From the NCBI GenBank assembly GCA_006503475.1, contig RSEH01000217.1:19363-83362 (forward strand): a stretch of 64,000 nucleotides of DNA, read 5' to 3'. Each line of letters opens with the position of its first letter. Position 1 is the stretch's first letter. Below the pieces are notes generated by a model, which was given only the letters and a program-made list of their open reading frames with translations, was not told the origin of the DNA and did not search any database. Origin of the DNA: Stentor roeselii (lineage: Eukaryota; Ciliophora; Heterotrichea; Heterotrichida; Stentoridae). This document shows, piece by piece, positions 2,610-49,975 of this stretch. The position numbers and the translations under genes were made by a program.

Positions 2610-3455
2610 TTAACTGAAAATACTTCTCAATGAGCTAAAAACGTACTTGGGTGAATAATCAAATTTGTTAATCTCGTTGAAACTAGTAACTCCAGTTAAG
2701 ACTAAAGCGGTGTCAATCCCTGAACTGATTCCAAAAAGCACATCAGACTCCATGCTGTCTCCGATCATCACAGTCCTGTTGACATCGATTTCATTCTCTT
2801 CTTGTATCAGAGAAAATAAGTCAATCATCGGCTTTCCTAAGATTCTAGCTTGGACTCCAGTTGCAGTTTCCATAAACTTTATCCAGCATCCTGAAGCAGG
2901 AAAAATCAGTTTTTCAGATATCGAACATCTGTCTCTATGAAGTCCGATCAAAGAAGCACCGTTCTGAACACATGCGGAAAGGTAAAGAGATGAAAAATAA
3001 TTAAATCCTTCATCGTAGGCGACTATTGCAACTTCGATGTTCTCTTCTATTTCGAAATTTCGAAGGTCTTCAAAGGTATTTATTGAAAAATCGAAATCAG
3101 GAGGGTAAATTACTTGGTATCCTGAATCTTGTATCAGTCGACGAAGACTTCTGGGCCCTATTATTGAAACTTTTTGACAACAAGGATGATGCTTTTTTAA
3201 GTACTTTATTAGAAGATATCCTGCACTGTATAATTTTGCCTTTGGAACTTGTAGTGATTCTGCTGAGAAGCGAGCTTCTAGGTTTTCAAAAGTCATATTC
3301 GCATTATTCGTCACAAAGAAAATATCTTTATCATGTGCTTCCAAGATCTTTAAAGTCTCCACACTTCCATCAACAAAACCTTTCTGATTCCACAAAACTC
3401 CATCAAGATCAATACAAAAATGATCATAATCCCTCAAAAAGTCAATCTTATCCAT
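2610..3455 (-). CDS. HAD-IIA phosphatase, phosphoglycolate/4-nitrophenyl phosphatase-like
   Basis: A 281-residue protein of the HAD superfamily, subclass IIA. Motif I is FCIDLDGVLWN, with the nucleophile and acid Asp at residues 16 and 18. Motif II is FFVTNNA, and the C-terminal motif is MIGDSMESDVLFG, the Mg-binding acidic pair. This pattern is typical of eukaryotic PGP/PNPP enzymes, which dephosphorylate 2-phosphoglycolate and similar small metabolites in the cytosol. Length is close to the roughly 300 residues usual for the family. The gene is followed by a close paralogue at 3663-4514 on the same strand, about 207 bp away, so the pair arose by tandem duplication. Catalytic residues are intact in both. 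The exact substrate cannot be read from the sequence. Confidence 0.9.
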   Translation of the reverse strand: MDKIDFLRDYDHFCIDLDGVLWNQKGFVDGSVETLKILEAHDKDIFFVTNNANMTFENLEARFSAESLQVPKAKLYSAGYLLIKYLKKHHPCCQKVSIIGPRSLRRLIQDSGYQVIYPPDFDFSINTFEDLRNFEIEENIEVAIVAYDEGFNYFSSLYLSACVQNGASLIGLHRDRCSISEKLIFPASGCWIKFMETATGVQARILGKPMIDLFSLIQEENEIDVNRTVMIGDSMESDVLFGISSGIDTALVLTGVTSFNEINKFDYSPKYVFSSLRSIFS

Positions 3456-3662: not shown

Positions 3663-4514
3663 CTACCCAACAACCTTCGCCAAGTTCTCTAAAACATAAT
3701 TCGGTCTAAATTCAAACCCGTGCAGATTTTCCTCTTTAGTAACTCCAGAAAGTACCAAACAAGTATCAATCCCGGAGTTAATCCCAAACAAAACATCCGA
3801 TTCCATGCTATCCCCAATCATCAAAGTCCTTTCGGGGTCTAAATTCCTCTCTTCTCTAATAATATCAAACAAGAACCTCAAAGGTTTTCCAATAAAATTC
3901 GCTTTTTTATTCGAAGCAGTTTCAATGAACGAGATCGAGCATCCAGAAGCCGGAATCATTGAAGTTCCAAAGATAAAAAACCTGTCTTTATTCAACCCGA
4001 TGAGACTTGCTCCATTCTGAATGCAAGCCGAGCAGTAAAGAGCAGAATAATAATCAAAGTTCACATCATAAGCGACGACCACAGCGTCTACATTTGCCTC
4101 GACTTCGATTTTTGTGAGGCTTTTTAAGTCTGAAATTGGATTTTCAAGCTCTGAAGGATAGACTACCTGATACCCGGCGTCTTTCAGGTACTTTCGAAGT
4201 CCTGGCATTCCCATTACTACGATTTTTTGGCAGGATGGGTGATTTATTTGAAGGTATTTCAAAATCGCGTAACCTGTTGTGTAGAGGTTCTCTGTTGATG
4301 ATGTTATCGACATTGAAGAAAAACGCTGTTGAAGCTCTTCTCGAGTCAATGCTGCGTTGTTTGTCACGAAATAGACTTGCTTGTTTTGGGACTTTAAATA
4401 TGCCACTGCCTCGGAACTACCTTCTATTGCGTTGTGACCGTTCCACATCACACCGTCAAGGTCGATGAGAAAATTGTCGTATTTTTCTAGGAGGTTTATT
4501 TGAGAAGAGGACAT
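3663..4514 (-). CDS. HAD-IIA phosphatase, phosphoglycolate/4-nitrophenyl phosphatase-like (tandem paralogue)
   Basis: A 283-residue HAD-IIA phosphatase, paralogous along its whole length to the product of 2610-3455. Motif I is FLIDLDGVMWN (Asp18 and Asp20), motif II is YFVTNNA, and the metal-binding motif is MIGDSMESDVLFG. The ATG is directly preceded by TCTATAA, a TATA-like context seen at several genes here. Both copies keep all expected catalytic residues, so neither looks like a pseudogene. They have diverged throughout, so the duplication is not recent. The product is probably a cytosolic small-metabolite phosphatase of the phosphoglycolate phosphatase type. Confidence 0.9.
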   Translation of the reverse strand: MSSSQINLLEKYDNFLIDLDGVMWNGHNAIEGSSEAVAYLKSQNKQVYFVTNNAALTREELQQRFSSMSITSSTENLYTTGYAILKYLQINHPSCQKIVVMGMPGLRKYLKDAGYQVVYPSELENPISDLKSLTKIEVEANVDAVVVAYDVNFDYYSALYCSACIQNGASLIGLNKDRFFIFGTSMIPASGCSISFIETASNKKANFIGKPLRFLFDIIREERNLDPERTLMIGDSMESDVLFGINSGIDTCLVLSGVTKEENLHGFEFRPNYVLENLAKVVG

Positions 4515-12678: not shown

Positions 12679-13053
12679 ATGCAAAATAATGATTTTATGT
12701 ATCAGACTGACTTTGAAAGTGGAAAAGATATTAAAAGAGTTGAACTTAGTCCGAAAAGAGTTGATATTTGCTTGAAATATGAAAAAAATCATAGTAATTC
12801 GGTTAGGGTTCCTAAGATGATCACGCATAAGAGGAAAATTTCTGATGGGGAATTTAGGAAAAAGGAGAAACACTTGCCGACTATTTTTAGAAATCCTGTT
12901 ATTCCGGTTACTTCGGTTTCTCAGAGCCATAGGCAGAATATTATAAGGAAAAGACTTCAGAAACACTGTCATTCACTTTACCAACCTACGCTTTACCCTC
13001 GTAATTTGAAATACTCGTTAATACTTGACAATTTTTATCTAAGTTCTACCTAA
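12679..13053 (+). CDS. Small basic hypothetical protein
   Basis: A 124-residue Lys/Arg-rich protein with no recognised domain. Residues about 20-60 (VELSPKRVDICLKY, RVPKMITHKRKISDGEF) look like short linear motifs in a disordered chain. I favour this strand over the antisense open frame at 12622-12972 because it has a good ATG placed divergently from the PTC7-like gene with only 19 bp between. Its stop codon (TAA at 13051-13053) overlaps by 4 bp the stop codon of the convergent transposase gene (TAG on the minus strand, 13052-13050). Confidence 0.55.
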   Translation: MQNNDFMYQTDFESGKDIKRVELSPKRVDICLKYEKNHSNSVRVPKMITHKRKISDGEFRKKEKHLPTIFRNPVIPVTSVSQSHRQNIIRKRLQKHCHSLYQPTLYPRNLKYSLILDNFYLSST

Positions 13054-14207
13054 TTAACCTCATTTTCCCCTTTTCTCTTCTGATACTCATTCAAAATTCC
13101 AGAAAGTTCATTCAAAACCGTAGCAATTTCATTTTTCTTACAATCCCTCTTAAACTGTCTCATCCAGCAAAAAGTATGCAAATAATGCTGAAAGTTGACA
13201 AACCTTCGATGTTTCTTAATCCAATACTTGGCCCAGCACCAAGAAATTTCAATATTTTGGGTATGAATTTCTCTACTTTTCGGATTAACAAAAAACCTAG
13301 AATGATCAACAGTATAATGTGGAAATCCAAGTTCAGCAAGATGATTATAAGCATTCCACTGATCAGAAATAACAGTAGTTCCCGTTTCACATATTTTCTG
13401 AATAATCGGCAATAAAACCGCAGCAGTTCTTTTGCTGACAAGTTCCATATAAACAAGTTTTCTTTCTCTTTCATAAAGTCCAAATACCCATTTATCAGTC
13501 CCCACTTGACATGGTTTATCTTTCGAGCTTCTAAAGCAGGACTCATCAATTTCGACGACTCCTCGAAAGCGAGGAAGATTTTTCACAAAATGCTCTGAAA
13601 CGATTTCTCTTAATTTTTCAGTGATTGGCTTGATTACCTTGCGTTCCACGTTGATCATGGTGAGGATGTTTGTATTGGGTTGGTTCATTGCCCATAAAAA
13701 AAGGGTTAAAACGATTTTTCCAACTGTTATGTCAGGATGGTCCCAAAGAGTTCCTTCGGTCACTGGACAACGAAATCCGCATTCACAGTAGAAAAAAAAA
13801 TGCTTTAAAAATGGTTTTAATTCACATTTTTTTCCACATTTGCAGAAGTGAACTGAACTTAAAAAACGCTTTTGGAATAAAAAACTCATTGCGAGTTCTG
13901 GGTCGTAGACTATGTTTAAAATGTTTAGAGGAAGGTTTAGGTTCTCGATGTAGGTTAGAAGACCTGAGTCACGGATGTGAAGCTTTGGAAGGATTGGCGA
14001 TTTCATGTAAAGTTTTTGCTTTATTAGAGTAAGGGATTTTAGTAACTCGCTTTTCTTGTGGTGCAGGTCCTCATTCAGTTCTTTGATGACCTTGTATTGT
14101 TGCCGTAATTTAGAGTTTTCAATAGATAAATACATAGAAGATGACAACAAGTCGACACAAGTTTCACAAGAAAGTATCCGAGATTCATGATCTTTACAAC
14201 TGTACAT
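13050..14207 (-). CDS. Merlin/IS1595 (ISXO2-like) DDE transposase with B-box-like N-terminus
   Basis: A 385-residue protein. The N-terminus has Cys4, His7, Cys14 and Cys17 in B-box-like spacing, followed by a coiled coil (about residues 25-66). A zinc ribbon with Cys122, Cys124, Cys128, Cys141, Cys143 and Cys147 precedes the ISXO2-like DDE domain. The catalytic residues appear intact: Asp221 (VVEIDESCF), Asp282 (VISDQWNAY) and Glu320 (IHTQNIEISW). I find no terminal inverted repeats or target-site duplication in the flanks. The 3' end abuts the neighbouring gene so closely that an element boundary there would lie inside that gene. The promoter block equals that of histone H4. The features fit a host-retained transposase gene, perhaps used in genome rearrangement; that role is inference. 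Confidence 0.9.
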   Translation of the reverse strand: MYSCKDHESRILSCETCVDLLSSSMYLSIENSKLRQQYKVIKELNEDLHHKKSELLKSLTLIKQKLYMKSPILPKLHIRDSGLLTYIENLNLPLNILNIVYDPELAMSFLFQKRFLSSVHFCKCGKKCELKPFLKHFFFYCECGFRCPVTEGTLWDHPDITVGKIVLTLFLWAMNQPNTNILTMINVERKVIKPITEKLREIVSEHFVKNLPRFRGVVEIDESCFRSSKDKPCQVGTDKWVFGLYERERKLVYMELVSKRTAAVLLPIIQKICETGTTVISDQWNAYNHLAELGFPHYTVDHSRFFVNPKSREIHTQNIEISWCWAKYWIKKHRRFVNFQHYLHTFCWMRQFKRDCKKNEIATVLNELSGILNEYQKRKGENEVN

Positions 14208-17569: not shown

Positions 17570-18195
17570 ATCTTGATATTTTATGAAGAATGAGTTAACA
17601 TCATCTTTTGATCTAACACCCAGTTGATTATTCCATCTTTTGATTAAACAGCCAGTTATTCATCTCATCTTAAGATTTAACACCCAATAAACCATCTCTT
17701 CTTGAGACGTAACACCCTAACACCCTAGCATCTTTTCATCTTACACCCAGTTTATTATTCCATCTTTTGATTAAACAGCCAATTATTCATCTCATCTTAA
17801 GATTTAACACCCAATAAACCATCTCTTCTTGAGACGTAACACCCTAACACCCTAGCATCTTTTCATCTTACACCCAGTTTATTATTCCATCTTTTGATTA
17901 AACAGCCAGTTATTCATCTCATCTTAAGATTTAACACCCAATAAACCATCTCTTCTTGAGACGTAACACCCTAACACCCTAGCATCTTTTCATCTAACAC
18001 CCAATTATCATTTCCTCTTTGTTCTAGCACCCAGTTAATGAATCTTTACTAACACCCAGTTAATTTTCTTTCATCTAACACCCAGACAATCATTTCTCAT
18101 CTACACCCAGACAATCATCTCTTCTTTCATCTAACACCCTGTTAATCATCTTATCTTTTGATCTAACACCCTTACACCCAGTTAATCATGGTGTA
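17570..18195. repeat. Degenerate telomere-like (TAACACCC) array with three 127-bp units
   Basis: The stretch is dominated by variants of TAACACCC. Three near-identical units start at 17630, 17757 and 17884, each beginning ATTCCATCTTTTGATTAAAC, a period of 127 bp. Each unit carries AACACCCTAACACCCTAG (17711, 17838, 17965), which contains CCCTAACA, recalled as the heterotrich telomere repeat. Downstream, to about 18190, irregular units of 25-35 bp repeat TAACACCCAG with TTAATCAT. No coding potential is evident. The array occupies the gap between the HMG-box gene and the repeat-rich protein gene, whose ATG is at 18209. The strand bias is C-rich on the plus strand. Confidence 0.85.
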
Positions 18196-18208: not shown

Positions 18209-21200
18209 ATGGGAGGCTGCACAGTTAAATCAACTCATACTCATACTCATCTGGAAGCTGAGGTGAAGGTGACTATTCCAACATGTCACTACTTCTGCAG
18301 GAAAAAGAAAAACCTCTTTCATATCTCGACTGACAAGGTTGAGAAATACAGCTTTAAAGGGAAACTCAAGTGTCACTCCGACTCTGGAACAGGACTCACG
18401 AAAGACGGAGGAATCCTCCTGGCTGGAGGAACCGACTCTTCGGGATCACTGACGACGAGAGTTTTTGTCATCACCCCTGAAAAGTTCTCTGGACACGAAT
18501 TGACCCCGATACCCAAACCTGTCAAGGAAGGCCATTTGTTTGAGTACAACGGCTACTATTACTTTATTGGAGGAACTTGTGAGGCTGAGTCTGTCGATGC
18601 TCTTAGTGGTGTTGAAGGCTCGCCAGTCTTCCGTTACAGCAAGAAAGAGAAAGGATGGGAAGTTTTCAGCCACAATAAAAATCCGAAGGCTGGTATAGAA
18701 AAAGCATTGAACCGTAACATCACAGACAAAGAAGAACACGAAGAAATCCTATTAGACTCATCCCGGTTTTCCCTAAAAGACCTAATCTCTCCAGGAGTCT
18801 TTTACTTCAACGACAAAGCCTACCTAGTAGGAGGTCAAATCTTAGTAGAAAACCAATTCAAGCCAACAAACAAGATCCACTCAATCAACTTAAAAAGCGA
18901 ATCATTCGAATTCACAGAAGAGTCTTTAGAGCTTCCAGTGAAACTAATCAATCCAGTCTGCACATCAGGAAGTTCACACGCGATAGTCACAGGAGGTTTA
19001 CTAGAGAATCACGGGCACAACACTGAAATCTTTGTAATAAACTTCAACTCAGGTACCGTTAAAAAGTTTGAATCAAAGTTAGACTCTGAACTAAAAGAGA
19101 ACTATCCTCCTACTTACACTGAAAAAGAAGTGATTTTCTTTGGATTCCCAAAACTTTGGGTAAAACCTAAAGATCAAGATAAAGCTTTTAGTTTTACTTT
19201 TAAGAAAAAAGAACAGGGGACTAAAGGAGCTGGGTATAAGACTCAAGATGTTAAAGTTGAAAAACATGGTTCTGGAAAAGCACCTGTTAAGGTTAATATT
19301 GATTTGAGTTTAAGGAATAGTTCTGAGAAACCGAAGAGGAAAGGACATGGAAAGCATAAAAAATCGAAGAGTTCTAGTTCTAGCTCTGGAAAGGGCGTTA
19401 AGGGGAAGATCACACTTCCGGTTGTCAATGCTGAGGCTAAGGTTAAAACGCATTCTAAGAAAAAGAAGTCTTCTTCATCTGGATATGATATTAAAACTAA
19501 AAATATCACTGCGAATGTGGATGGAGGTGTTAATGTTAAAATCAAAAAAGGTTCGTCTAGCTCGTCAAGTTCTGGAAAAGGGAAGGGGAAAGGGAAGGGG
19601 AAAGTCAAGGTCGAAGGCCCAAAAATAAAAATTGGAGGCAAAGGTTCGTCTTCATCCAGTTCATCAAAAAATAAAGTCAAAGGCAAGGCAAACATAAAAG
19701 TCCCAGGTGCTAAAGTCGATCTTCCGAATTTGGACGTTAAAGTAAAAGGCTCAGGCAAAAAGTCCCGTAGCTCAAGTTCATCAAAAAAAGTCAAAGGCAA
19801 GGCAAACATCAAAGTTGAAGTTCCGAAGGTAAAAGTTGAAGTTCCCACGGCCACTCTTGATGCAAAAGTGAAAATAGGGGGAAAAAAATCGAGTTCTTCT
19901 TCAAGTTCGTCTTCAGGAAAGAAAAAGATGAAGGCGAAGGTTGATCTACCAAAAGCAAATATAAATGTCGGAATAGGAAAAGGAAAAGGAAAGAAATCTT
20001 CAAGTAGCTCTTCTAAAAATGCCAAGGCTAAAGTTGTCCCACCCAAAATTGGAGCGAAATTTGAGCCTCCTAAAGCTGAAGTTAAATTAAACATTGGAGG
20101 GAAAAAGAAGTCGAAATCATCTTCGAGTAGTTCTTCTGGAAAAGCCAAAGTAAAGATGAATGCTCCTAAGATTCAGGCTAATATTGGACCTCCTAAGGGA
20201 AAAATTGATGCGAAAATAAACCTTCCGGCAAAGAAAAAGTCAGGCTCGTCGTCTTCAAGTAGCTCATCTGGAAAAGGTAAAGTGAAGTTTGGTGTACCTA
20301 AAATAGAAGCAAAAATCGATACTGCTAAACCAAAGGCTGAAGTAAAAATAGAACCTGTTAATGAGAAAGCTCGTGTTAACTTCACAATAAAAAATAAAAA
20401 GAAATCTGGCTCATCATCAAGCAGTTCTTCTTCAAACAAAGGTAAAATTAAAGTACCTAATGCAAAGATTACTGCGAATATTGAACCTCAGAAAATTCCA
20501 GCGAAATTTGAACCTCCAAAAGTCAATGCAAAAATAAAGGTTGGTGGAAAAGGTTCAAGTTCGAGCAGTAGTTCATCGTCAGGGAAGAAGAATCTCAAGA
20601 TTTCAGGTCCTAAGGTTGATGTCAAATTGGATGCTCCTAAGGCTAAGATAGAAACTCCCAAACTAGATGCAAAGTTAAAGATTGGAGGCAAGAAAAAATC
20701 TAGCTCATCTTCAAGCAGTAGTTCATCTAAAAAAGCTAAAATGGCTCCTCCAAAAATAACAGCAAAAATTGAACAACCTAAAGCTCAAGTAAAAGTAGAA
20801 CCTCCGAAAATCGAAGCGAAGGTAAACATTGGAGGAGCTAAGAAAAAATCGAGCTCGTCTTCAAGCAGTAGCTCTTCTAAGAAAGGGAAAATCGCTCCTC
20901 CTAAAATTCAAGCAAAAGTTGAGCCACCAAAGGGAAAAATCGAAGTTCCAAAAGCTGATTTGAAATTAAATATCGGAGGAGGCAAGAAAAAATCAAGCTC
21001 GTCTTCAAGCAGCTCATCTAGCAAAGGTAAAGCAAAAATTGCTCCGCCTAAATTAGGTGTTAAAGTTGAGCCACCTAAAGGAAAAATCGAAACTCCTTCA
21101 GCTAAAGCAGATATCAAATTAAATATAGGAGGAGGAAAGAAAAAATCAAGTTCATCATCTTCTTCCTCAAACAAGGGAAAACCTGGAGCTAAGGGAGGAA

Positions 21201-24200
21201 TCAACATCAACGTTGGAGGAAAAGCTGGAATTAATGTAAAAGGCCCTGGTAAACCTGGAGTTGATGCAAATATTGGTGGAAAGGCTGGAATCGACATAAA
21301 AACTGGAGGAAAAGTAGGACTCGACATTAAAGGTGGAGCCAAAGGTAAAAAAAGCAGTTCATCGTCCTCATCTTCATCTTCAAGTGGGAAAAAAAAGGCT
21401 GGGTTAAATATTAAAGTCGGAGGAAATGCCGGAGGCAAAGCAGGACTTGATGTGAAAGCTGGAGGCAAACCAGCAGTTGATGTTAATATCGGCGGAAAGG
21501 CAGGAGTTGATGTAAAAGGTCCAGGAAAAGCTGGACTCGATGTGAAAGCTGGAGGAAAAGTAGGACTCGACATTAAAGGTGGAGCCAAAGGCAAAAAAAG
21601 TAGCTCATCATCGTCATCTTCATCATCGAGCGGTAAAAAAAAGGCTGGGTTAAATATTAAAGTCGGAGGAACTGGAGGAGGCAAAGCAGGACTTGATGTG
21701 AAAGCTGGAGGCAAACCAGCAGTCGATGTAAATATCGGTGGAAAAGCAGGTGTTGATGTAAAAGGTCCAGGAAAAGTAGGACTCGACATAAAAGGTGGAG
21801 TGAAAGGCAAAAAAAGCAGTTCATCATCTTCATCTTCTAGTGGGAAAAAAAAGGCTGGGTTGAATATTAAAGTCGGAGGAACTGGAGGAGGGAAAGCAGG
21901 ACTTGATGTGAAAGCTGGAGGCAAACCAGCAGTTGACGTTAATATCGGCGGAAAAGCAGGTGTTGATGTAAAAGGTCCAGGAAAAGTAGGACTCGACATA
22001 AAAGGTGGAGCCAAAGTCAAAAAAAGTAGTTCATCGTCCTCATCATCATCATCTAGCGGCAAAAAAAAGCTTGGCTTAAACGTTAAAGTCGGAGGAAATG
22101 CCGGAGGCAAAGCAGGACTTGATGTGAAAGCTGGAGGTAAACCAGGAGTCGACGTAAATATCGGTGGAAAGGCAGGAGTTGATCTTAAAGGCCCAGGAAA
22201 GCCAGGAGTCGATGTGAAAGCTGGAGGAAAAGTAGGACTCGACATAAAAGGTGGAGCAAAAGGCAAAAAAAGTAGTTCATCATCGTCATCTTCATCATCA
22301 AGCGGTAAAAAAAAGGCTGGATTGAATATTAAAGTCGGAGGAACTGGAGGAGGCAAAGCAGGACTTGATGTGAAAGCTGGAGGCAAACCAGCAGTCGATG
22401 TAAATATCGGTGGAAAGGCAGGAGTCGATGTAAAAGCTGGAGGAAAAGTAGGACTAGACGTGAAAGGTGGAGCCAAAGGTAAAAAAAGCAGTTCTTCGTC
22501 TTCATCATCTAGCGGCAAAAAAAAGGCTGGCTTAAACGTTAAAGTTGGAGCAGGAGGCGCTGGAAAAGCAGGACTTGACGTGAAAGCTGGAGGTAAACCA
22601 GCAGTAGATGTTAATCTCGGTGGAAAGGCAGGAGTTGATGTAAAAGGTGCAGGAAAAGCTGGACTCGATGTTAAAGCTGGAGGAAAAGTAGGACTCGACA
22701 TAAAAGGTGGAGCGAAAGGCAAAAAAAGTAGTTCATCGTCCTCATCTTCATCATCAAGCGGCAAAAAAAAGGCTGGGTTAAATATTAAAGTTGGAGGAAA
22801 TGCCGGAGGCAAAGCAGGACTTGATGTGAAAGCTGGAGGCAAACCAGCAGTCGATGTAAATATCGGTGGAAAGGGAGGAGTTGATGTTAAAGGCCCAGGA
22901 AAGCCAGGAGTCGATGTGAAAGCTGGAGGAAAAGTAGGACTCGACATTAAAGGTGGAGCGAAAGGCAAAAAAAGCAGTTCTTCATCATCTTCATCTTCAT
23001 CATCAAGCGGTAAAAAAAAGGCTGCCTTAAACGTTAAAGTCGGAGGAACTGGTGGAGGCAAAGCAGGACTTGATGTAAAAGCTGGAGGCAAAGCAGGACT
23101 TGACGTGAAAGCTGGAGGAAAACCAGCAGTCGACGTCAATCTCGGTGGAAAGGCAGGAGTCGATGCAAAAGCTTCAGGAAAAGCTGGACTCGACGTCAAA
23201 GCTGGAGGAAAAGTAGGACTCGACATTAAAGGTGGAGCAAAAGGCAAAAAAAGCAGTTCATCTTCCTCATCTTCATCTTCATCATCAAGCGGTAAAAAAA
23301 AGGCTGCCTTAAACATTAAAGTTGGAGCAGGAGGCAAAGCAGGACTTGATGTAAAAGCTGGAGGCAAAGCAGGACTTGATGTAAAAGCTGGAGGCAAACC
23401 AGCAGTCGATGTTAATCTCGGTGGAAAGGCAGGAGTCGATGTAAAAGCCTCAGGAAAAGCTGGACTCGATGTGAAAGCTGGAGGAAAAGTAGGACTTGAT
23501 ATAAAAGGTGGAGCCAAAGGTAAAAAAGGTAGTTCATCATCATCATCTTCATCATCTAGCGGCAAAAGAAAAGCTGGGTTGAACGTTAAAGTCGGAGGAG
23601 CCGGCGGAGGGAAAGCAGGAGTTGATGTAAAAGCTGGAGGCAAAGCAGGAGTTGATGTAAAAGCTGGAGGCAAAGCAGGAGTCGACTTAAATCTTGGTGG
23701 AAAAGCAGGAGTCGATGCAAAAGCCTCAGGAAAAGCTGGACTCGATGTGAAAGCTGGAGGAAAAGCTGGCCTTGATGTGAAAGCTGGAGGAAATGCTGGA
23801 CTCAACGTGAAAGGTGGAGCGAAAGGTAAAAAAGGAAGTTCATCATCATCTTCTTCTTCATCATCTTCATCATCATCAAGCAGTAAACGAAAAGCTGCAT
23901 TGAATGTAAAAGCTGGTGGAAATGCAAAAATCGATGCAAAGGCTGGAATAGATGTAAAAGCTGGAGGAAAGGCAGGAGTAGATGTAAAAGGTGCAGGAAA
24001 GGCAGGAGTAGATCTAAAAGGTGCAGGAAAAGCCGGAGTTGACTTGAAAGGTTCAGGAAAGGCCGGAGTTGAGGTCAAAGGTGGTGGAGTAGATATCAAA
24101 GCAGGACTTAATGTAAAATCTGGAGACGCCAAAGGAAAAGCTTCAGCAAAGGCGAAAGGCAAGAAAGGATCAAGTTCAAGTTCAAGTTCTAGTTCAAGTT

Positions 24201-24214
24201 CAAGTTCAAGTTAA
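18209..24214 (+). CDS. Giant Kelch-headed Ser/Lys/Gly repeat protein with myristoylation-type N-terminus
   Basis: A 2001-residue protein. It begins MGGCTVKS, matching an N-myristoylation site at Gly2 with Cys4 available for palmitoylation. Residues about 30-340 resemble Kelch-type beta-propeller blades (GGILLAGGTDSSG, YYYFIGGTCE, KAYLVGGQIL, HAIVTGGLLEN). From about 370 onward the chain is low complexity. First come units of poly-Ser plus Lys/Pro-rich segments (KVEPPKIEAKVNIGG). From about residue 990 there are about twelve units of 70-100 residues, with Ser runs of 8-16, GKKKAGLNIKVGG and repeated GGKAGVDVKAGGK. Alternating hydrophobic and polar residues (VDVK, LDIK) recall AHNAK repeats. 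The tail is extremely basic, with hundreds of Ser as possible phosphosites. A membrane-anchored cortical or matrix scaffold is my guess; I know no homologue. Confidence 0.85.
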   Translation: MGGCTVKSTHTHTHLEAEVKVTIPTCHYFCRKKKNLFHISTDKVEKYSFKGKLKCHSDSGTGLTKDGGILLAGGTDSSGSLTTRVFVITPEKFSGHELTPIPKPVKEGHLFEYNGYYYFIGGTCEAESVDALSGVEGSPVFRYSKKEKGWEVFSHNKNPKAGIEKALNRNITDKEEHEEILLDSSRFSLKDLISPGVFYFNDKAYLVGGQILVENQFKPTNKIHSINLKSESFEFTEESLELPVKLINPVCTSGSSHAIVTGGLLENHGHNTEIFVINFNSGTVKKFESKLDSELKENYPPTYTEKEVIFFGFPKLWVKPKDQDKAFSFTFKKKEQGTKGAGYKTQDVKVEKHGSGKAPVKVNIDLSLRNSSEKPKRKGHGKHKKSKSSSSSSGKGVKGKITLPVVNAEAKVKTHSKKKKSSSSGYDIKTKNITANVDGGVNVKIKKGSSSSSSSGKGKGKGKGKVKVEGPKIKIGGKGSSSSSSSKNKVKGKANIKVPGAKVDLPNLDVKVKGSGKKSRSSSSSKKVKGKANIKVEVPKVKVEVPTATLDAKVKIGGKKSSSSSSSSSGKKKMKAKVDLPKANINVGIGKGKGKKSSSSSSKNAKAKVVPPKIGAKFEPPKAEVKLNIGGKKKSKSSSSSSSGKAKVKMNAPKIQANIGPPKGKIDAKINLPAKKKSGSSSSSSSSGKGKVKFGVPKIEAKIDTAKPKAEVKIEPVNEKARVNFTIKNKKKSGSSSSSSSSNKGKIKVPNAKITANIEPQKIPAKFEPPKVNAKIKVGGKGSSSSSSSSSGKKNLKISGPKVDVKLDAPKAKIETPKLDAKLKIGGKKKSSSSSSSSSSKKAKMAPPKITAKIEQPKAQVKVEPPKIEAKVNIGGAKKKSSSSSSSSSSKKGKIAPPKIQAKVEPPKGKIEVPKADLKLNIGGGKKKSSSSSSSSSSKGKAKIAPPKLGVKVEPPKGKIETPSAKADIKLNIGGGKKKSSSSSSSSNKGKPGAKGGININVGGKAGINVKGPGKPGVDANIGGKAGIDIKTGGKVGLDIKGGAKGKKSSSSSSSSSSSGKKKAGLNIKVGGNAGGKAGLDVKAGGKPAVDVNIGGKAGVDVKGPGKAGLDVKAGGKVGLDIKGGAKGKKSSSSSSSSSSSGKKKAGLNIKVGGTGGGKAGLDVKAGGKPAVDVNIGGKAGVDVKGPGKVGLDIKGGVKGKKSSSSSSSSSGKKKAGLNIKVGGTGGGKAGLDVKAGGKPAVDVNIGGKAGVDVKGPGKVGLDIKGGAKVKKSSSSSSSSSSSGKKKLGLNVKVGGNAGGKAGLDVKAGGKPGVDVNIGGKAGVDLKGPGKPGVDVKAGGKVGLDIKGGAKGKKSSSSSSSSSSSGKKKAGLNIKVGGTGGGKAGLDVKAGGKPAVDVNIGGKAGVDVKAGGKVGLDVKGGAKGKKSSSSSSSSSGKKKAGLNVKVGAGGAGKAGLDVKAGGKPAVDVNLGGKAGVDVKGAGKAGLDVKAGGKVGLDIKGGAKGKKSSSSSSSSSSSGKKKAGLNIKVGGNAGGKAGLDVKAGGKPAVDVNIGGKGGVDVKGPGKPGVDVKAGGKVGLDIKGGAKGKKSSSSSSSSSSSSGKKKAALNVKVGGTGGGKAGLDVKAGGKAGLDVKAGGKPAVDVNLGGKAGVDAKASGKAGLDVKAGGKVGLDIKGGAKGKKSSSSSSSSSSSSSGKKKAALNIKVGAGGKAGLDVKAGGKAGLDVKAGGKPAVDVNLGGKAGVDVKASGKAGLDVKAGGKVGLDIKGGAKGKKGSSSSSSSSSSGKRKAGLNVKVGGAGGGKAGVDVKAGGKAGVDVKAGGKAGVDLNLGGKAGVDAKASGKAGLDVKAGGKAGLDVKAGGNAGLNVKGGAKGKKGSSSSSSSSSSSSSSSSKRKAALNVKAGGNAKIDAKAGIDVKAGGKAGVDVKGAGKAGVDLKGAGKAGVDLKGSGKAGVEVKGGGVDIKAGLNVKSGDAKGKASAKAKGKKGSSSSSSSSSSSSSS
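21340..24214 (+). repeat. Coding tandem repeats (about 210-300 bp units) in the Ser/Lys/Gly protein
   Basis: About twelve units are delimited by serine-coding runs near 21355, 21600, 21820, 22030, 22270, 22490, 22730, 22975, 23255, 23535, 23840 and 24170. Between runs the DNA repeats GGAGGAAAAGTAGGACTCGA and related blocks almost unchanged. Unit length varies because of gain or loss of the 12-14 residue KAGVDVKAGG blocks and of serine codons, indicating expansion by slippage and unequal exchange. The last serine run uses AGT/TCA-type codons in a perfect hexamer repeat (AGTTCA). Confidence 0.85.
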
Positions 24215-24263: not shown

Positions 24264-24599
24264 TTACCCCCCAAATCCATAAAGGGTTCTTCCCTGTCGC
24301 TTCAAGGCATAAACCACATCCAGGGCAGTGACAGTCTTTCTCCGGGCATGTTCAGTATAAGTAACAGAGTCCCTAACAACATTCTCTAAAAAGGCTTTAA
24401 GCACATTTCTAGTCTCATCATAGATAAGACCACTAAGCCTTTTAACCCCTCCTCTTCTGGCAAGTCTCCTGATGGCAGGCTTGGTGATTCCTTGAATGTT
24501 CTCCCTTGCAACATGCCTTCTCTTTTTCGCACCGACTTTTCCAAGGCCCTTGCCTTTGCCCTTGCCGATTTTGGCTTTTCCTTTTCCATCCGCTTTCAT
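24264..24599 (-). CDS. H4: Histone H4 with divergent, extended N-terminal tail
   Basis: A 111-residue core histone H4, compared with 102-103 residues in most eukaryotes. The fold region is highly conserved ([51 protein letters not shown]). The tail differs: it starts [20 protein letters not shown] and the segment before the fold reads [12 protein letters not shown] instead of GAKRHRKVLRDN. The extra residues add lysines available for acetylation. Other substitutions lie in the first and second helices. It functions in the nucleosome with H3, H2A and H2B. The ATG is immediately preceded by AGGGGGCTATAA. No other histone gene is in the window. Whether it is the main H4 or a variant cannot be told here. 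Confidence 0.97.
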
Positions 24600-25575: not shown

Positions 25576-27360
25576 TTAACTGTTCATTTCCAAGGGAATT
25601 TCCATCACTTTTTCTCTTTCGCTATCTAAAAAAAACAGTTTTCCCTGAATCACCACAGAACTTGCTGGGTTATTCGAAATAAAACTCACTTCTAAATTTT
25701 CGACTTTCGTCAAAGAAGTACTTGTTTCAGGGTTAAAATGCCAGATCCCTAGTCTCCTTTTATCATTTTCCCCAATAAATTTCCCTCCAACAATGAAAAT
25801 CTCTTCTTTGTAGCTAGTTACTCCGAATTTTAAAATTTTTTCTGGAAGTCTGGGTTGAATGATAGTCCATTTATCGCCATCGAATACTTCAATCAAGTCA
25901 TTTACTTCTAAGGGCAGTCCTCCAAACACAAAAGTCTTTCCCTGAAAAACCAAACATTCAGGTGAAGATCTCGGTTTATTCAGTGAAGGTCCCGCTTTCC
26001 ATTCATTTTCATTTAAAATTTCAACTGTATCAGTCGAAAACGATTCACTTGCCAAAACTCCCCCGACCAAAGCAGGACAATTGTTGATAAAAGTGAAGCC
26101 TGCAAACTTTCGACAAACAGGCAACGAAGGTAATGATTGTTTTTGCTTTGTGAAAATATCAAATTTTTTTACATCTGATGAATATCCTGGATTAATCAGA
26201 ACTGTTGACCAGTCCACTGCAAGAATAGAAAGACCAGGGACCCAGTCTGGAATTACGAGTTTTATCGTATTTTGCATGTTTTTTGAGTAAAATGTTGACT
26301 TTTCTGTGGAGTTTAGTAGGAAGAAAATGTTTTTTCCGTTATTTTCAAGAGATTTTGATGATTTTATTAGGCTTTGTTGATTCTTTTTTAGGATTTCACT
26401 TGAAATTAGAGAATCTTGGTTTGATGAAGTTGAAAAAATCGATGATTTTTCCATGTTTTTGGTCATAGATGAGGATTTTTGTGATGTTTTAGAGTTTTTT
26501 GTTAATTTTGATATCAGGTCTTCCTTTTCTTTGTTTAAAATTTCGAGTTCATTTTGAGTTTCTTCTTCAATTTGTTTTATCTTTTTTTGAGCTGATTCTA
26601 AAGCTTGCTGCTTTTTATTCTCAAAGAAATTTTCGATTTCTTCAATAAAAAAACAAGAAAAATGAAATTTTTCATCATTTTCTAAAGTTTCTGAATAATT
26701 TTCCAAAAAACTACTTTTCGAGAATTCAAAATCGTTTTGAAATCCAAGATTTTTTTGTTTTTTTCCTGTTTTTAACTCAAAATCTTCATTTTGATTGTTA
26801 CTTTTTATTTCTTGATTCGAATGATTTTCTGGTTCTGGGTTGAATTCAGCAGCTGAAACTTTAAGTTCCAATGATTTTTCCTGAAAAGAAGAAAAATTTT
26901 GTTTTCTGGGAATGAAATGGTCTATCTGTGTATCGCCTCCAAAATATATATCTTTCGAAATATCAAAAGAAGTTTTCATCTGATTTTCCTCAGTTTTAAT
27001 CTGAAATTCTTGAGAGTTTTGCTCTTCATAGGTCGGGAAAAAGGGGGCATAATTATAATAAGATGAATAACAAGGCACAGGATAAGAGATTGTCTGATCA
27101 TTATAAACCCTTCCTGAAAATTCCCCAACATTTTCAAAGTTTTCTTCATTATCTAAACACTCTTCAGGATAATACTCCTGAGAAAAGGTCTGTCTATCAA
27201 AAATCTCTTGAAAATCTTCTTTTTTCTTCAAATTGTTGAAACATTGACCACCCCAAACCTTGTTAAACTTCATTCGAGTCCTTGAAAAATCCGTCAAGAT
27301 ATTAAAATCCGGAGTATCAAAATCGTATCTAACAGGATAATTAGAACTTTTTGACTCCAT
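25576..27360 (-). CDS. Coiled-coil Kelch-repeat protein
   Basis: A 594-residue protein with three parts. Residues 1-235 are disordered and rich in Asn, Gln, Glu and Phe. Residues about 235-300 form a coiled coil (KKQQALESAQKKIKQIEEE). Residues about 365-590 form Kelch-like blades (FAGFTFINNCPALVGGVL, GKTFVFGGLP, EEIFIVGGKF). The partial propeller may complete with another chain. It has the same domain order as the next gene upstream (27393-29054), which lies head-to-tail 32 bp away, so the two are diverged tandem paralogues. Kelch domains usually bind proteins; a cytoskeletal or signalling scaffold is possible. Confidence 0.75.
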   Translation of the reverse strand: MESKSSNYPVRYDFDTPDFNILTDFSRTRMKFNKVWGGQCFNNLKKKEDFQEIFDRQTFSQEYYPEECLDNEENFENVGEFSGRVYNDQTISYPVPCYSSYYNYAPFFPTYEEQNSQEFQIKTEENQMKTSFDISKDIYFGGDTQIDHFIPRKQNFSSFQEKSLELKVSAAEFNPEPENHSNQEIKSNNQNEDFELKTGKKQKNLGFQNDFEFSKSSFLENYSETLENDEKFHFSCFFIEEIENFFENKKQQALESAQKKIKQIEEETQNELEILNKEKEDLISKLTKNSKTSQKSSSMTKNMEKSSIFSTSSNQDSLISSEILKKNQQSLIKSSKSLENNGKNIFFLLNSTEKSTFYSKNMQNTIKLVIPDWVPGLSILAVDWSTVLINPGYSSDVKKFDIFTKQKQSLPSLPVCRKFAGFTFINNCPALVGGVLASESFSTDTVEILNENEWKAGPSLNKPRSSPECLVFQGKTFVFGGLPLEVNDLIEVFDGDKWTIIQPRLPEKILKFGVTSYKEEIFIVGGKFIGENDKRRLGIWHFNPETSTSLTKVENLEVSFISNNPASSVVIQGKLFFLDSEREKVMEIPLEMNS

Positions 27361-27392: not shown

Positions 27393-29054
27393 TCAAAGGT
27401 TAGGCAAATTCTGTCTGCTGATGTGTCCAGTTTCATAGTCAATCAAATACAAAGTTCCTTCTTTCCAAACCGCATTCATGCAATCTCCAGCCAAGAAATT
27501 AAATGAAATAAACCCGTTGTACTTAAGAGTATTCCTCACAGGGTCAACGGCGATGATCGTATTAACCTTTTGTTTATTTTCATTATTAATCCCTCCCAAA
27601 ACAATAATCGTATCTGCTGCAGGAATAATTGCAAACTGCGACAAAGACACAGGAAGGTTAATACTTAAAGCAGTCCAAGTCGATCCATCGAATTTTTCGA
27701 TAATTTTATTAACATTAGGTGGATTCCCTCCGAATATAAAAGTTTTTCCTTTAAAAACTGTAGACAACCCGTGAGACCTTGGGTTTACAAGCATTGAAAA
27801 CTTTTTAGAGGTGTTAAGACCGTCGATTAGATCAACTTCTCGACTTAAGCTGTTGGAATTCGGGTCTAGTCCTCCCATGACTGCTGGGAAGTTGTTTATG
27901 TAGCCGAAGGTGCAAAATCTTCGATTTGAATTCAGTCTTGATATTATTTTTAAATCTCGAGATATGAGGTGCATTGAGGAAACTTCTTGAGTTACGGAGT
28001 TGTAGATTAATACTTGGTCTGGAGCATGGAATAACCGAGATGAACCATTTGGTAATACTGGAAGTTCGATTTTTTGGGAAGTGGAAAGATCGAGGGAGAT
28101 ATATGTACTGTTTTTGAATGAGTTTATTAGAACTTTACTGTCGTTGGGGATTGTCGTGTTTGGTTTTAAGGGAGGTTTTTCTTTTGATGGGGTTGATGAA
28201 AAACGGTCGGATTCGACTGAGGCATCTTCTTGGATATCTACAGGCTGTGATTTCATCGATTCAGTCTCAAAATTTTCATCCAAACCTTCAGCCATCATAA
28301 TCTGTTCAATTACAAATTTTTCAGTTTTATTCAACTCTTCCAAATCCCTTCTATATTCCTCATCAATAGCTTTTTTTTTCTCTTCACTTTTTTTCATCAA
28401 TTCTCGTCTAAGCCTATTAAAATATTGACTAACAGGTTCAGAATTGATCTTCACAATATTTTTATTCCCCCCTTTATTACTTTTCTTCCCCTTTTGCTTA
28501 GCAGGCACAATATGTGTAGAATTATTTCCAGTTTTCGCTTTTTTACTTTCAACAACAGGAAGTACAGGGTGTTTCTCCGGGTTTAAACCAGAGTCATACC
28601 CTCGACTAGGCACTTTTATCATTGTTTGATTAATATTTTTTGTCTCATTCTCTTGAGGTGCTGAATTCGTGAAAGTCGCTTGTCGAGGTTCGGGTTGTCT
28701 TAAGATCTGAGCAGGTTGATTATTCGGAACTATTTGATTAGAATTGTTTGTAAGTCCTGGGTTCATCTGTTGTGAAGGTGTTCGTTGTTTGTAAGGTTCA
28801 GGGTTAGGTGTTATTTGAATCACATTACTTGGATTTGGCCTTATGTCATTATTTGCTGTGTTCATCGTGTAAGGTCTTGTTGGCAAGTTGTTAATAGGAG
28901 GAGGGTAGTTCTGATTGAAATTCTGAGGAATACGATTGTTAGGGTTCATTGGAATACCTTGCATTAACCCGATGTTTAAAGGATCGCTTTGGTTCGAGTT
29001 AACACCTGAACCTTGCTGGTAGTATCGACTGCTTGGGGGCAGGTTCCAGTCCAT
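27393..29054 (-). CDS. Asn/Pro-rich coiled-coil Kelch-repeat protein (paralogue)
   Basis: A 553-residue protein. The first 150 residues are dominated by Asn, Pro and Gln (GLMQGIPMNPNNRIPQNF). A basic stretch (KQKGKKSNKGGNK) and a coiled coil (RRELMKKSEEKKKAIDEE) cover about 185-265. The C-terminal 250 residues are Kelch-like (FCTFGYINNFPAVMGGLD, GKTFIFGGNPP, DTIIVLGGINN). The arrangement equals that of the neighbouring gene at 25576-27360. The Asn/Gln-rich start is prion-like in composition and could favour condensate formation; this is inference. The ATG is preceded by ATAATTAAT. Confidence 0.75.
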   Translation of the reverse strand: MDWNLPPSSRYYQQGSGVNSNQSDPLNIGLMQGIPMNPNNRIPQNFNQNYPPPINNLPTRPYTMNTANNDIRPNPSNVIQITPNPEPYKQRTPSQQMNPGLTNNSNQIVPNNQPAQILRQPEPRQATFTNSAPQENETKNINQTMIKVPSRGYDSGLNPEKHPVLPVVESKKAKTGNNSTHIVPAKQKGKKSNKGGNKNIVKINSEPVSQYFNRLRRELMKKSEEKKKAIDEEYRRDLEELNKTEKFVIEQIMMAEGLDENFETESMKSQPVDIQEDASVESDRFSSTPSKEKPPLKPNTTIPNDSKVLINSFKNSTYISLDLSTSQKIELPVLPNGSSRLFHAPDQVLIYNSVTQEVSSMHLISRDLKIISRLNSNRRFCTFGYINNFPAVMGGLDPNSNSLSREVDLIDGLNTSKKFSMLVNPRSHGLSTVFKGKTFIFGGNPPNVNKIIEKFDGSTWTALSINLPVSLSQFAIIPAADTIIVLGGINNENKQKVNTIIAVDPVRNTLKYNGFISFNFLAGDCMNAVWKEGTLYLIDYETGHISRQNLPNL

Positions 29055-47793: not shown

Positions 47794-49975
47794 TTACTTA
47801 CTCTTAAAAAATTTTCTAATCTTTTCCAAAACTTCCTTAGTAGTCTTTCCACAAATTTTATTCCTTTTCATCCAATCAGGTCGACAATGAATCTTCTGAT
47901 CATGTCTAGAGTCAACCAACAAAACAACAGCAAAATCATTTACATGTCTAATAGCTCTTCCAATAGACTGGTTAATAGCAACATCACAAGAGTTCTCATA
48001 AAATCGGTACCCAGAGTACCACGAGGACTTATCATAATAAGCTTTCTTCGCAATGACCTCAGGATCCCTGACAGACAAATAAGGCAGACCAACAACAACG
48101 ACACATCTTCCAAGTTTATCAGAAAAATTTATTCCTTCACTTAAAGATCCTCGAATAACTGCAAATAACAAAGCTCCAAAATTTTCTGCACTTTCTGAAA
48201 ATAGTTTAAGAATATTTTTCTCATGATTATCAAAAAATACTTCTTTTATGCCGTTTAAATTTTCGAGAAAATTTAAGCAAAATGGAATTTGAAGGGTTTT
48301 TAGGAATGAGTAAGATGGTAGGAAGACGATTATTCCGTTTGGAATGAGGAAGCAGAGATTGGAAAGAAAATCGCAGAGGTCGAGAATTGTTGAAGTTGCT
48401 TCGTGGGTGTTTTGGGTAAATTTTAATGGAGTGCCTTTTATTGAATCTTTTATTGTTGCTAGGAGAAGGTTTTCAGAAGGGACTATGTGATCGCAGGAAA
48501 AGCGGATAAGTTTTTTTTTAGATATTGTGTGAAAGAGTCGAGTGAATTCTTCGTATGGCTGAAGAGTTCCTCCTGCTAAAACAACACAATTCGCTTCATC
48601 AAGTATCATTTGAAACTTCTCATAAGGGTTCAATAAAACTAGCCTAATATAGCTCGATCCATCAATGCAGTTCTTCCCAATTAAAAAGTTTCCCTCAGGC
48701 TCTGAAAGACAGACAAGAAACTGCTGAAAACTTCTAAGCGCGATAAGGTTTTGCTTATTCTCTTCTTGAGACCTACCTTTGGTATAATGCATTTTAATCG
48801 GCATCTGATACTCCTCATAATCCTCCCACAATTCCATAAACCTAATTCTATCAAGTTCATATTTCTGAAGAACATAATCTTTACTCTCACAAAGCACCTC
48901 AATATTTTTATTTAAATCAATAAACTTTCTCAAACCATTCAATATTTTAATGCTTTGATCGACATTGAGCAACTTATTAATCTTGAGTTTATTAATATAA
49001 GTCGCTCTGTAGTCCACCACACAGTTTAAACAGTTAATTATTTTTTTTTTAGTCAAAGTTTGTGAATGTTGGTCTGTTAAAGCATTGATGATATTATGAG
49101 CTTCATCAATTATCACGTAACAGTTAGTTAAACTTAAACCGATAGCTCTTCGACTATGCTTGCTCAAGACAGAAGAATAAGGAGCGATGATTATATCAGC
49201 TTCTTTTATTGCTTTTCTTGAAGCATAATAAGGACAGAAATTTCGAATGGTTCCTTTTGTTGCCAGGTCGTCAATATCACAGATTTCTTTGAGTATCTCT
49301 TGTTTACCGTCATCTCGAGCGTCGAAATAAGGACAACGAGTTTTTTTTTCTTCATGTCTGAAATCATTTTTGGTATTCTTATCATCTGCATCTTTAGAAA
49401 CGTCATCTGAACCTTGAATGGAAATTTTTTGGATTTTTGAATGTTTTTGATTAAAAATGACTGAATTTTTTTTATTTGAAACTTTTTTAGCTGGCAAGAT
49501 GGTTTCTGGAAGTTCGTTATCAGAACTTGATTTTTCATTTGATGAATTTTTACCTATCAGGACTTTGCAGTTAAAATCAATTAGTTGGCGTGTGTTTTTA
49601 ACTTTTGGGTTCACGCAAAGCTGAGATCTTGATGCAAGTCGGGTTAGACTGAAAATGTTCTGCTGGCCCTAGATTGTTTTTTTTAACTCATTGGTGCTGA
49701 TCTAGTTGTGAATGAGTTCTTGAGATGTATAATATTCTAGGCTTTAGCTCAGGGTTTTGATTTTGTGAGTTCATTTCAGAGGACTTCCTTGGTTCTAATT
49801 TAGCTTGATTTTTTATTGGAGAAGTAGGGTCAAGTCCTAAAGTATTAATATGATCTGATAAGAAAGATAGAGATGCACAGATTATACTTAAGTTTTTACC
49901 AGTACCTGTTGGACTTTCAAATAAACCCCCTTCGCAGGTTTCAAGACAATTGTACAAATTTTTCATGAAATCCAA
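47794..49975 (-). pseudogene. Decayed DDX11/CHL1-like helicase copy
   Basis: A paralogue of the intact helicase at 51681-53846, lying 5' to 3' on the same strand. The N-terminal about 15 residues are missing (frame starts near [10 protein letters not shown], with TAA just upstream). Walker A reads GTGKN instead of GTGKT. After THSQLDQ a 2-base deletion shifts the frame into TGA (about 49690), and in the restored frame a TAG replaces the Trp codon of the TVWGQRN block. From there to 47794 about 600 codons stay open and retain FCPYYASR, VIIDEAHNIINA and the C-terminal helicase motifs (GSLSEGINFSDKLGR, SIGRAIRH). The long open remainder suggests recent decay or a shorter transcript still made. 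I describe the lesions only. Confidence 0.85.

Follow-up and report, generated by a model that had tools for sequence, protein, structure and literature searches.

A 64,000-nucleotide window of contig RSEH01000217.1 from the ciliate Stentor roeselii contains a coding frame of 2001 amino acids (aa) at 18209-24214 on the forward strand (hereafter C135). By sequence it is a member of a family of about 30 genes in this genome, the products of which combine a Met-Gly (MG) start with a Kelch-type head. C135 and five relatives also carry giant tails of Lys clusters and Ser runs, and in five of these six giants net positive charge and run Ser are in near one-to-one balance. The protein was tentatively read, with a probability of roughly 40%, as an acylated Kelch adaptor on the inner face of a membrane, with a MARCKS-like tail that would act as a phosphorylation-titratable polyelectrolyte. 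Four observations underlie this reading, namely the MG start, a Kelch head recognised at profile level, charge-matched Lys-Ser blocks and constraint at the protein level; the remainder is inferred.

The frame is open over 2001 codons from ATG to TAA under the standard code, with no intron needed. Stop codons of the 33 ATG frames of at least 200 aa in the window were TAA (17), TAG (8) and TGA (8).

N-terminal start, Kelch head and Lys-Ser tail

The protein begins with MGGCTVK (18209-18229), a start of the N-myristoylation/palmitoylation type with Gly2 and Cys4. The myristoylation consensus has Gly at position 2 and Ser or Thr at position 6, with a Cys nearby for palmitoylation. The start of each family member was placed at the first Met in its open frame and could be read clearly in 28 of the 30 genes, C172 and C349 being set apart. 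Gly2 was present in 27 of the 28, Cys4 in 16 and Ser/Thr6 in 19. As a control, non-family ATG frames of at least 200 aa, among them frames open by chance, were taken from loci L033-L063 and from the window; only 1 of 51 had Gly2 (Fisher p 7.6e-19). The acylation-type start is therefore a family feature, in agreement with the lipid-anchor signal proposed in a preliminary description of this DNA; the modification itself is predicted from the sequence. Inspection of the N-terminus by eye gave no hydrophobic signal stretch. Together with the myristoylation-type family start this makes an extracellular role look unlikely, so that of the phosphorylation-controlled "cortical or matrix polymer" suggested earlier the matrix half looks improbable and the cortical half is plausible only.

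The Kelch-type propeller head occupies approximately aa 22-335 (18272-19213) and was assigned by Pfam and profile comparisons; the spacing of GG motifs, judged by eye, indicates that it probably has six blades. Scanning the whole protein against Pfam at E up to 1 gave Kelch_6 (0.028) as the sole match, with no other family, and the head alone matched Kelch models beneath the Pfam cut-offs (best 3.2e-08). The Kelch assignment was borne out by the relatives: of 10 scanned, 5 scored above at least one of the Pfam thresholds for Kelch, and a profile built from 25 heads of the family retrieved 38 distinct PDB sequences at E<=0.01 with Kelch propellers on top (2woz, 4.3e-17). Two distant members, C391 (E limit 0.01) and C1 (E limit 1), gave no Kelch match. 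On the charge-hydropathy line the head falls on the folded side and the tail on the disordered side.

A basic linker (aa 336-387, 19214-19369) leads into the early tail (aa 388-987, 19370-21169), which holds Ser runs 1-15 of 4-10 residues each, 28-55 aa apart, and which from about aa 600 is mostly of the PPK / VKVEPPK / IGGKKK / Ser run type. The late tail (aa 988-2001, 21170-24211) holds runs 16-27 of 9-16 Ser each, 69-111 aa apart. It is built of 10-aa sub-repeats (GGKAGLDVKA type, 30 bases in the DNA), mostly followed by GGAKGKK-Ser run-GKKK, and finishes in 14 Ser at the stop. Taken from aa 371 to 2001 (∼1630 residues), the tail is 21.4% K, 19.6% G, 16.5% S, 9.7% A, 9.0% V and 4.4% I, with D+E at 5.8% and a net charge of +259. 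It contains 252 Ser in 27 runs of at least 4 (4-16 each), spaced 28-111 aa apart (median 53), and run length rises toward the C-terminus as had been described (Spearman 0.88, p 1.5e-9). The corresponding coefficients in other giants were 0.45 (C106), 0.39 (C297) and 0.70 (C316). TCN and AGY codons are mixed within the runs, which are therefore not plain microsatellite. The early tail gave no match among solved structures. An antisense frame of 1084 codons (20908-24162, minus strand) mirrors the repeat and was read as a shadow of its codon usage.

Most Ser runs are bordered by Lys clusters on both sides. Charge balance was calculated per unit, each run being taken with half of each adjoining segment and the first and last runs being dropped. 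The mean net charge per run Ser was 1.08 in C135, 1.01 in C106, 1.04 in C297, 0.96 in C316 and 1.04 in C172. Over whole tails the ratios were 1.03, 0.95, 1.01, 0.89 and 0.96 respectively, and 0.27 in the sixth giant, C349. In the same five giants the charge is concentrated beside the runs, at 0.54-0.69 per residue over the nearest 5 aa versus 0.07-0.13 in the unit cores.

Family relationships and divergence of the repeats

A search of the same genome with the head (E<=0.001) returned 41 matches at 31 places, 30 of which were counted as genes. C476, a match of 106 head positions with an internal stop, was excluded; C36, the head of which halts at a TAG and which looks shortened, was retained. 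C135 is thus not the lone oddity that it had seemed to be, but one of six giant-tailed members together with C106, C297, C316, C349 and C172. Elsewhere in the family the head is followed by FAD-binding and cholesterol-oxidase domains (C502a, C106b), by Lys-rich stretches in open frames without Ser runs (C150a/b), or by Ser-rich linkers and a C-terminal domain (C19, C53).

At loci L037, L039 and L045, MG-start Kelch heads are fused to FAD_binding_4 and Chol_subst-bind domains, assigned by Pfam in L037 and L039 and in L045 by likeness of its end only; such fusions might be sterol oxidases bound to a membrane and equipped with a Kelch adaptor. L045 has an apparent one-base shift in an A run within its Kelch head (∼1000-1040 of the reverse strand), which may be a sequencing error, a pseudogene or frameshifting. 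Stentor has tiny introns of 15-16 nt, as given in an excerpt of PMC9505925, and neither of the two frame breaks that were looked at (L045 and the C36 head) contained one.

Head phylogenies were calculated by maximum likelihood from 27 of the 30 heads (C36, C106c and C5 omitted), and again from 22 rows after also omitting C139, C1, C495, C502b and C48, trimming the first residues and removing long branches. C135 grouped with C150a/b, apart from the five other giants, with support of 99/93 in the first tree and 97/95 in the second. A single clade of six giants was rejected by the approximately unbiased test (p 1.8e-64 with 27 heads, p 6e-7 with 22 rows). Neither did the other five giants form a clade in the 22-row tree, where they were mixed with C6, C318, C19 and C53 in one group. 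The most parsimonious history has two or more gains of the giant tail, or its transfer from gene to gene; an ancient single gain followed by numerous losses may also account for the distribution.

A conserved C-terminal domain of ∼115-120 residues (SSDVSDTEND-like) stands behind the tails in C106, C209 and C496 and, after shorter linkers, in C19 and C53. Weaker matches were obtained in C36, C7, C167, C481 and C453 (E 5.7e-9 to 0.005), and C6/C318 have a remote form (hhalign probability 85.5). The domain had no match in Pfam, none in the PDB below E 0.8, and an accompanying NCBIfam search also gave no match. Head, giant tail and C-terminal domain lie in one frame only in C106, where a spacer between Kelch head and C-terminal domain fits a tether role. 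C297 and C209 overlap exactly by 50 bases at their ends, in repeat sequence; they are probably one gene, which would then probably have the same layout as C106. The ends of C316 and C496 have no more than 27 bases in common. The contigs of C297, C316, C349, C172, C209 and C496 all end within the tail.

Constraint on the repeats was measured as the ratio of non-synonymous to synonymous differences per site (pN/pS) between equal-length inter-run segments that had not been selected by sequence, in seven sets from four genes. C135 gave 0.24 (71 aa) and 0.38 (61 aa), with four segments in each set, C106 0.29 and 0.19, C297 0.58 and 0.44, and C316 0.40. The total range was 0.19-0.58 and no pair of segments was identical. 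An earlier calculation with units picked by regular expression had given 0.07-0.29; it was biased low and is superseded by the unselected segments. The four 71-aa late segments had a mean DNA identity of 90.5% and 0.22 synonymous differences per site, and the four 61-aa segments 0.37, none being identical as DNA. The units appear to be held at the protein level rather than to be fresh copies. The late units had been described as nearly identical and recently expanded; near-identity does not hold for the DNA, nor does a very recent burst, and "recent" can be kept in a relative sense only. An assembly artefact in the tail, raised as a possibility at the outset, was ruled out for C135 because both flanks lie in one contig, no segments are identical and the synonymous divergence is 0.22 and 0.37 per site.

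Tails were compared with one another by one representative each, with trimmed ends, against 2000 shuffles over 36 pairs. Many pairs had looked strongly alike before representatives were used, copies within one tail not being independent. The standout matches were the early tail of C135 with C269 (0 of 2000 shuffles as good), C172 with C269 (0), C106 with C172 (1) and, within C316, the late against the early part (5). Weaker matches, unsafe after 36 comparisons, were C297 with early C316 (17), early C135 with C172 (20), C106 with C269 (30) and late C135 with C269 (50). Between the early and late tails of C135 there was no such likeness, 1189 of 2000 shuffles scoring at least as well.

C269 (L062:2160-3077, minus strand), the best match of the early unit, combines a short tail of the IGGKK-Ser-run plan with a different, Cys-rich head, which was not picked up by the head search and has no Pfam family. 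The two matches to C269 at 0 of 2000 hint that the tail module was shuffled between genes. We would go further as a speculative possibility and a doubtful one: an evolvable polyelectrolyte module, in which each Ser is matched by roughly one net positive charge, may have been joined to Kelch heads with lipid anchors on independent occasions, and to a Cys-rich head once. Each gene would then have lengthened its copy separately into a tether of ∼1000-3000 residues, titrated by phosphorylation to set the mechanics of cortex or membrane.

These comparisons also bear on the alternative that the tail is drift: slippage and unequal crossing-over would have produced a chain that does little itself and is tolerated because the Kelch head before it is useful. 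The units do differ in each giant, the late units of C135 have no convincing likeness to any other tail apart from composition (50 of 2000 shuffles at best), and in all four giants tested the runs become longer along the chain. Drift is nevertheless unlikely given that pN/pS stays below 0.6 in all seven segment sets, and that two separate head lineages carry tails which agree in their Lys-Ser-Lys block plan and in their charge ratio.

Proposed function and its rivals

As an acylated Kelch adaptor, C135 would be fixed by myristoylation and palmitoylation to the cytoplasmic face of the plasma membrane or the alveolar cortex, and its propeller would dock onto a partner there. The disordered tail, with a contour length of ∼0.6 μm at 0.36 nm per residue, would lie on acidic lipids or acidic cytoskeletal surfaces while unphosphorylated. 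Phosphorylation of the Ser runs would neutralise and release it, in the manner of 27 successive MARCKS effector domains. A doubly charged phosphate on half of the 252 run Ser would bring the tail from +259 to approximately zero, and more would make it negative.

Several results weigh against this reading. AlphaFold2 gave a pLDDT of 33 for the head as a single sequence. Position 6 of C135 is V rather than Ser/Thr, and the giants C172 and C349 start with MVEA in open frames, without Gly2. C349 also departs from the charge rule (0.24 per run Ser, per unit), and whole-tail ratios are lower in the pieces C209 (0.74) and C269 (0.69). Run length and segment charge correlate at 0.82 in C135, in part positionally, since run length and position climb together in this gene, and not at all in C106 (-0.10). 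Finally, C135 lacks the C-terminal domain and ends in poly-Ser, and so is not two-ended like C106.

A related scheme makes the protein a linker between the membrane and microtubules, or another acidic filament, with Ser phosphorylation again causing release. Basic repeats of tau-type microtubule-associated proteins bind acidic tubulin tails, and heterotrich ciliates have large cortical microtubule ribbons. The iterated basic, Pro- and Val-containing units of C135 would suit such binding, but comparison of the full-length protein with Pfam (E up to 1) matched no tubulin-binding repeat model, and we consider a linker of this kind rather unlikely.

Alternation of Ser runs with basic stretches is typical of Nopp140, so that C135 might instead be a nuclear or nucleolar phospho-scaffold in the style of Nopp140 and treacle, its Lys clusters serving as localisation signals. 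The gene sits between an HMG-box gene and a histone H4-like gene, a matter of adjacency only. Conservation of the MG start across the family speaks against a nuclear scaffold, as do Ser runs free of the acidic residues found in Nopp140 Ser clusters (D+E being 5.8% of the tail), and such a role is very unlikely.

Self-assembly of the tail into a cortical sheet, as in an epiplast or alveolin-type membrane skeleton, was judged quite unlikely. Ciliates build such sheets (excerpt of PMC6212826), and the units of C135 contain Pro and alternate V/I with charged residues. Epiplastins (alveolins, articulins, epiplasmins) are likewise ciliate cortical proteins with low-complexity regions containing V, I, K and P. 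Their medial domains, as described in that excerpt, are 25% V, 9% I, 0.4% G, 1% A and 1% S, against 9.0, 4.4, 19.6, 9.7 and 16.5% in this tail; G+A+S, nearly absent there, make up 46% here.

Genomic surroundings and known systems

Directly upstream of the gene lies a minisatellite (17601-18180) with a 127-bp period repeated 3.2 times and a 32-bp sub-unit. It carries telomere-like CCCTAACA/AACACCC motifs and stops ∼30 bases 5' of the ATG; no second locus was found in a genome search that skips simple repeats. CCCTAACA repeats are present at contig ends of the genome, which together with its use of the standard code would fit a Stentor-like heterotrich. Downstream, the frame at 24264-24599 on the opposite strand matched histone-fold models in Pfam (CENP-T_C, 3.1e-08) and was read as histone H4. 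It ends 49 bases from the stop of C135, which leaves no room for a further coding piece.

Beyond it, two neighbouring genes (25576-27360 and 27393-29054, both minus strand) have low-complexity N-termini and C-terminal Kelch regions, that of the second scoring only below Pfam cut-offs. An ISXO2-like DDE transposase domain (PF12762, 3.8e-15) was found at 13050-14207 (minus strand) in a genome that looks somatic. Two DEAD_2/Helicase_C_2 helicases (47794-49614 and 51681-53846, both minus strand) are 47% identical over 606 columns, the open frame of the first beginning at about residue 141 of the second. HAD-family hydrolase genes lie side by side at 2610-3455 and 3663-4514 (both minus strand).

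C135 shares with AHNAK and AHNAK2 a giant size, a folded N-terminus and a long repeat region with PKVDVK-like motifs, and the AHNAK resemblance noted in the preliminary description is confined to such short motifs. It does not extend to the head or the units: AHNAK has a PDZ N-terminus and ∼128-aa repeats, and for AHNAK/AHNAK2 repeats of about 128 or 165 aa are given (excerpt of PMC10682155). Here there is a Kelch head, an MG start and poly-Ser runs 28-111 aa apart, and no PDZ domain was matched by the whole protein in Pfam at E up to 1. MARCKS is N-terminally myristoylated and has a Lys-rich stretch with phosphorylated Ser that forms an electrostatic membrane switch (excerpt of PMC5964646). 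At 35 kDa it has, according to the same excerpt, an MH2 domain and a single effector domain, which spans residues 152-176 in the human protein; C135 instead has 27 Ser-run blocks and a Kelch head. The likeness is one of working, not of membership, C135 being set beside MARCKS by description and not by sequence.

With KBTBD10, KLHDC2 and other Kelch-repeat proteins C135 has the propeller head in common, by profile; it differs in its acylation-type start, its giant charged tail and the lack of a BTB/BACK match in Pfam. Nopp140/treacle, phosvitin and silaffins alternate Ser runs or Ser-rich stretches with Lys, and are nuclear or secreted proteins without a Kelch head; they too are likened by description rather than sequence. 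The ISP proteins of Toxoplasma carry an acylation motif, and we know of none with a Kelch head and giant tail. They are cortical proteins of an alveolate (excerpt of PMC2936552), and are again likened by description as acylated cortical alveolate proteins. The head-plus-tail plan was not found described in the open-licence PMC literature, judged by titles and abstract starts, nor was such a family in its Stentor kelch literature. The earlier statement that no described protein has this plan holds within that scope.

Median run spacing differs between giants, from 31 residues in C316 to 37 in C106, 41 in C297 and 53 in C135. If the proposed reading is true, the family would be a natural series of charge-patterned disordered chains that differ in unit length and share a near-constant charge:Ser ratio and a common anchored head. 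It would offer a system in which to ask whether selection sees charge pattern rather than sequence. The comparison suggests that one genome built the same style of tail on separate head lineages, and the family would bear on how the cortex is anchored and tuned in a large unicellular organism.

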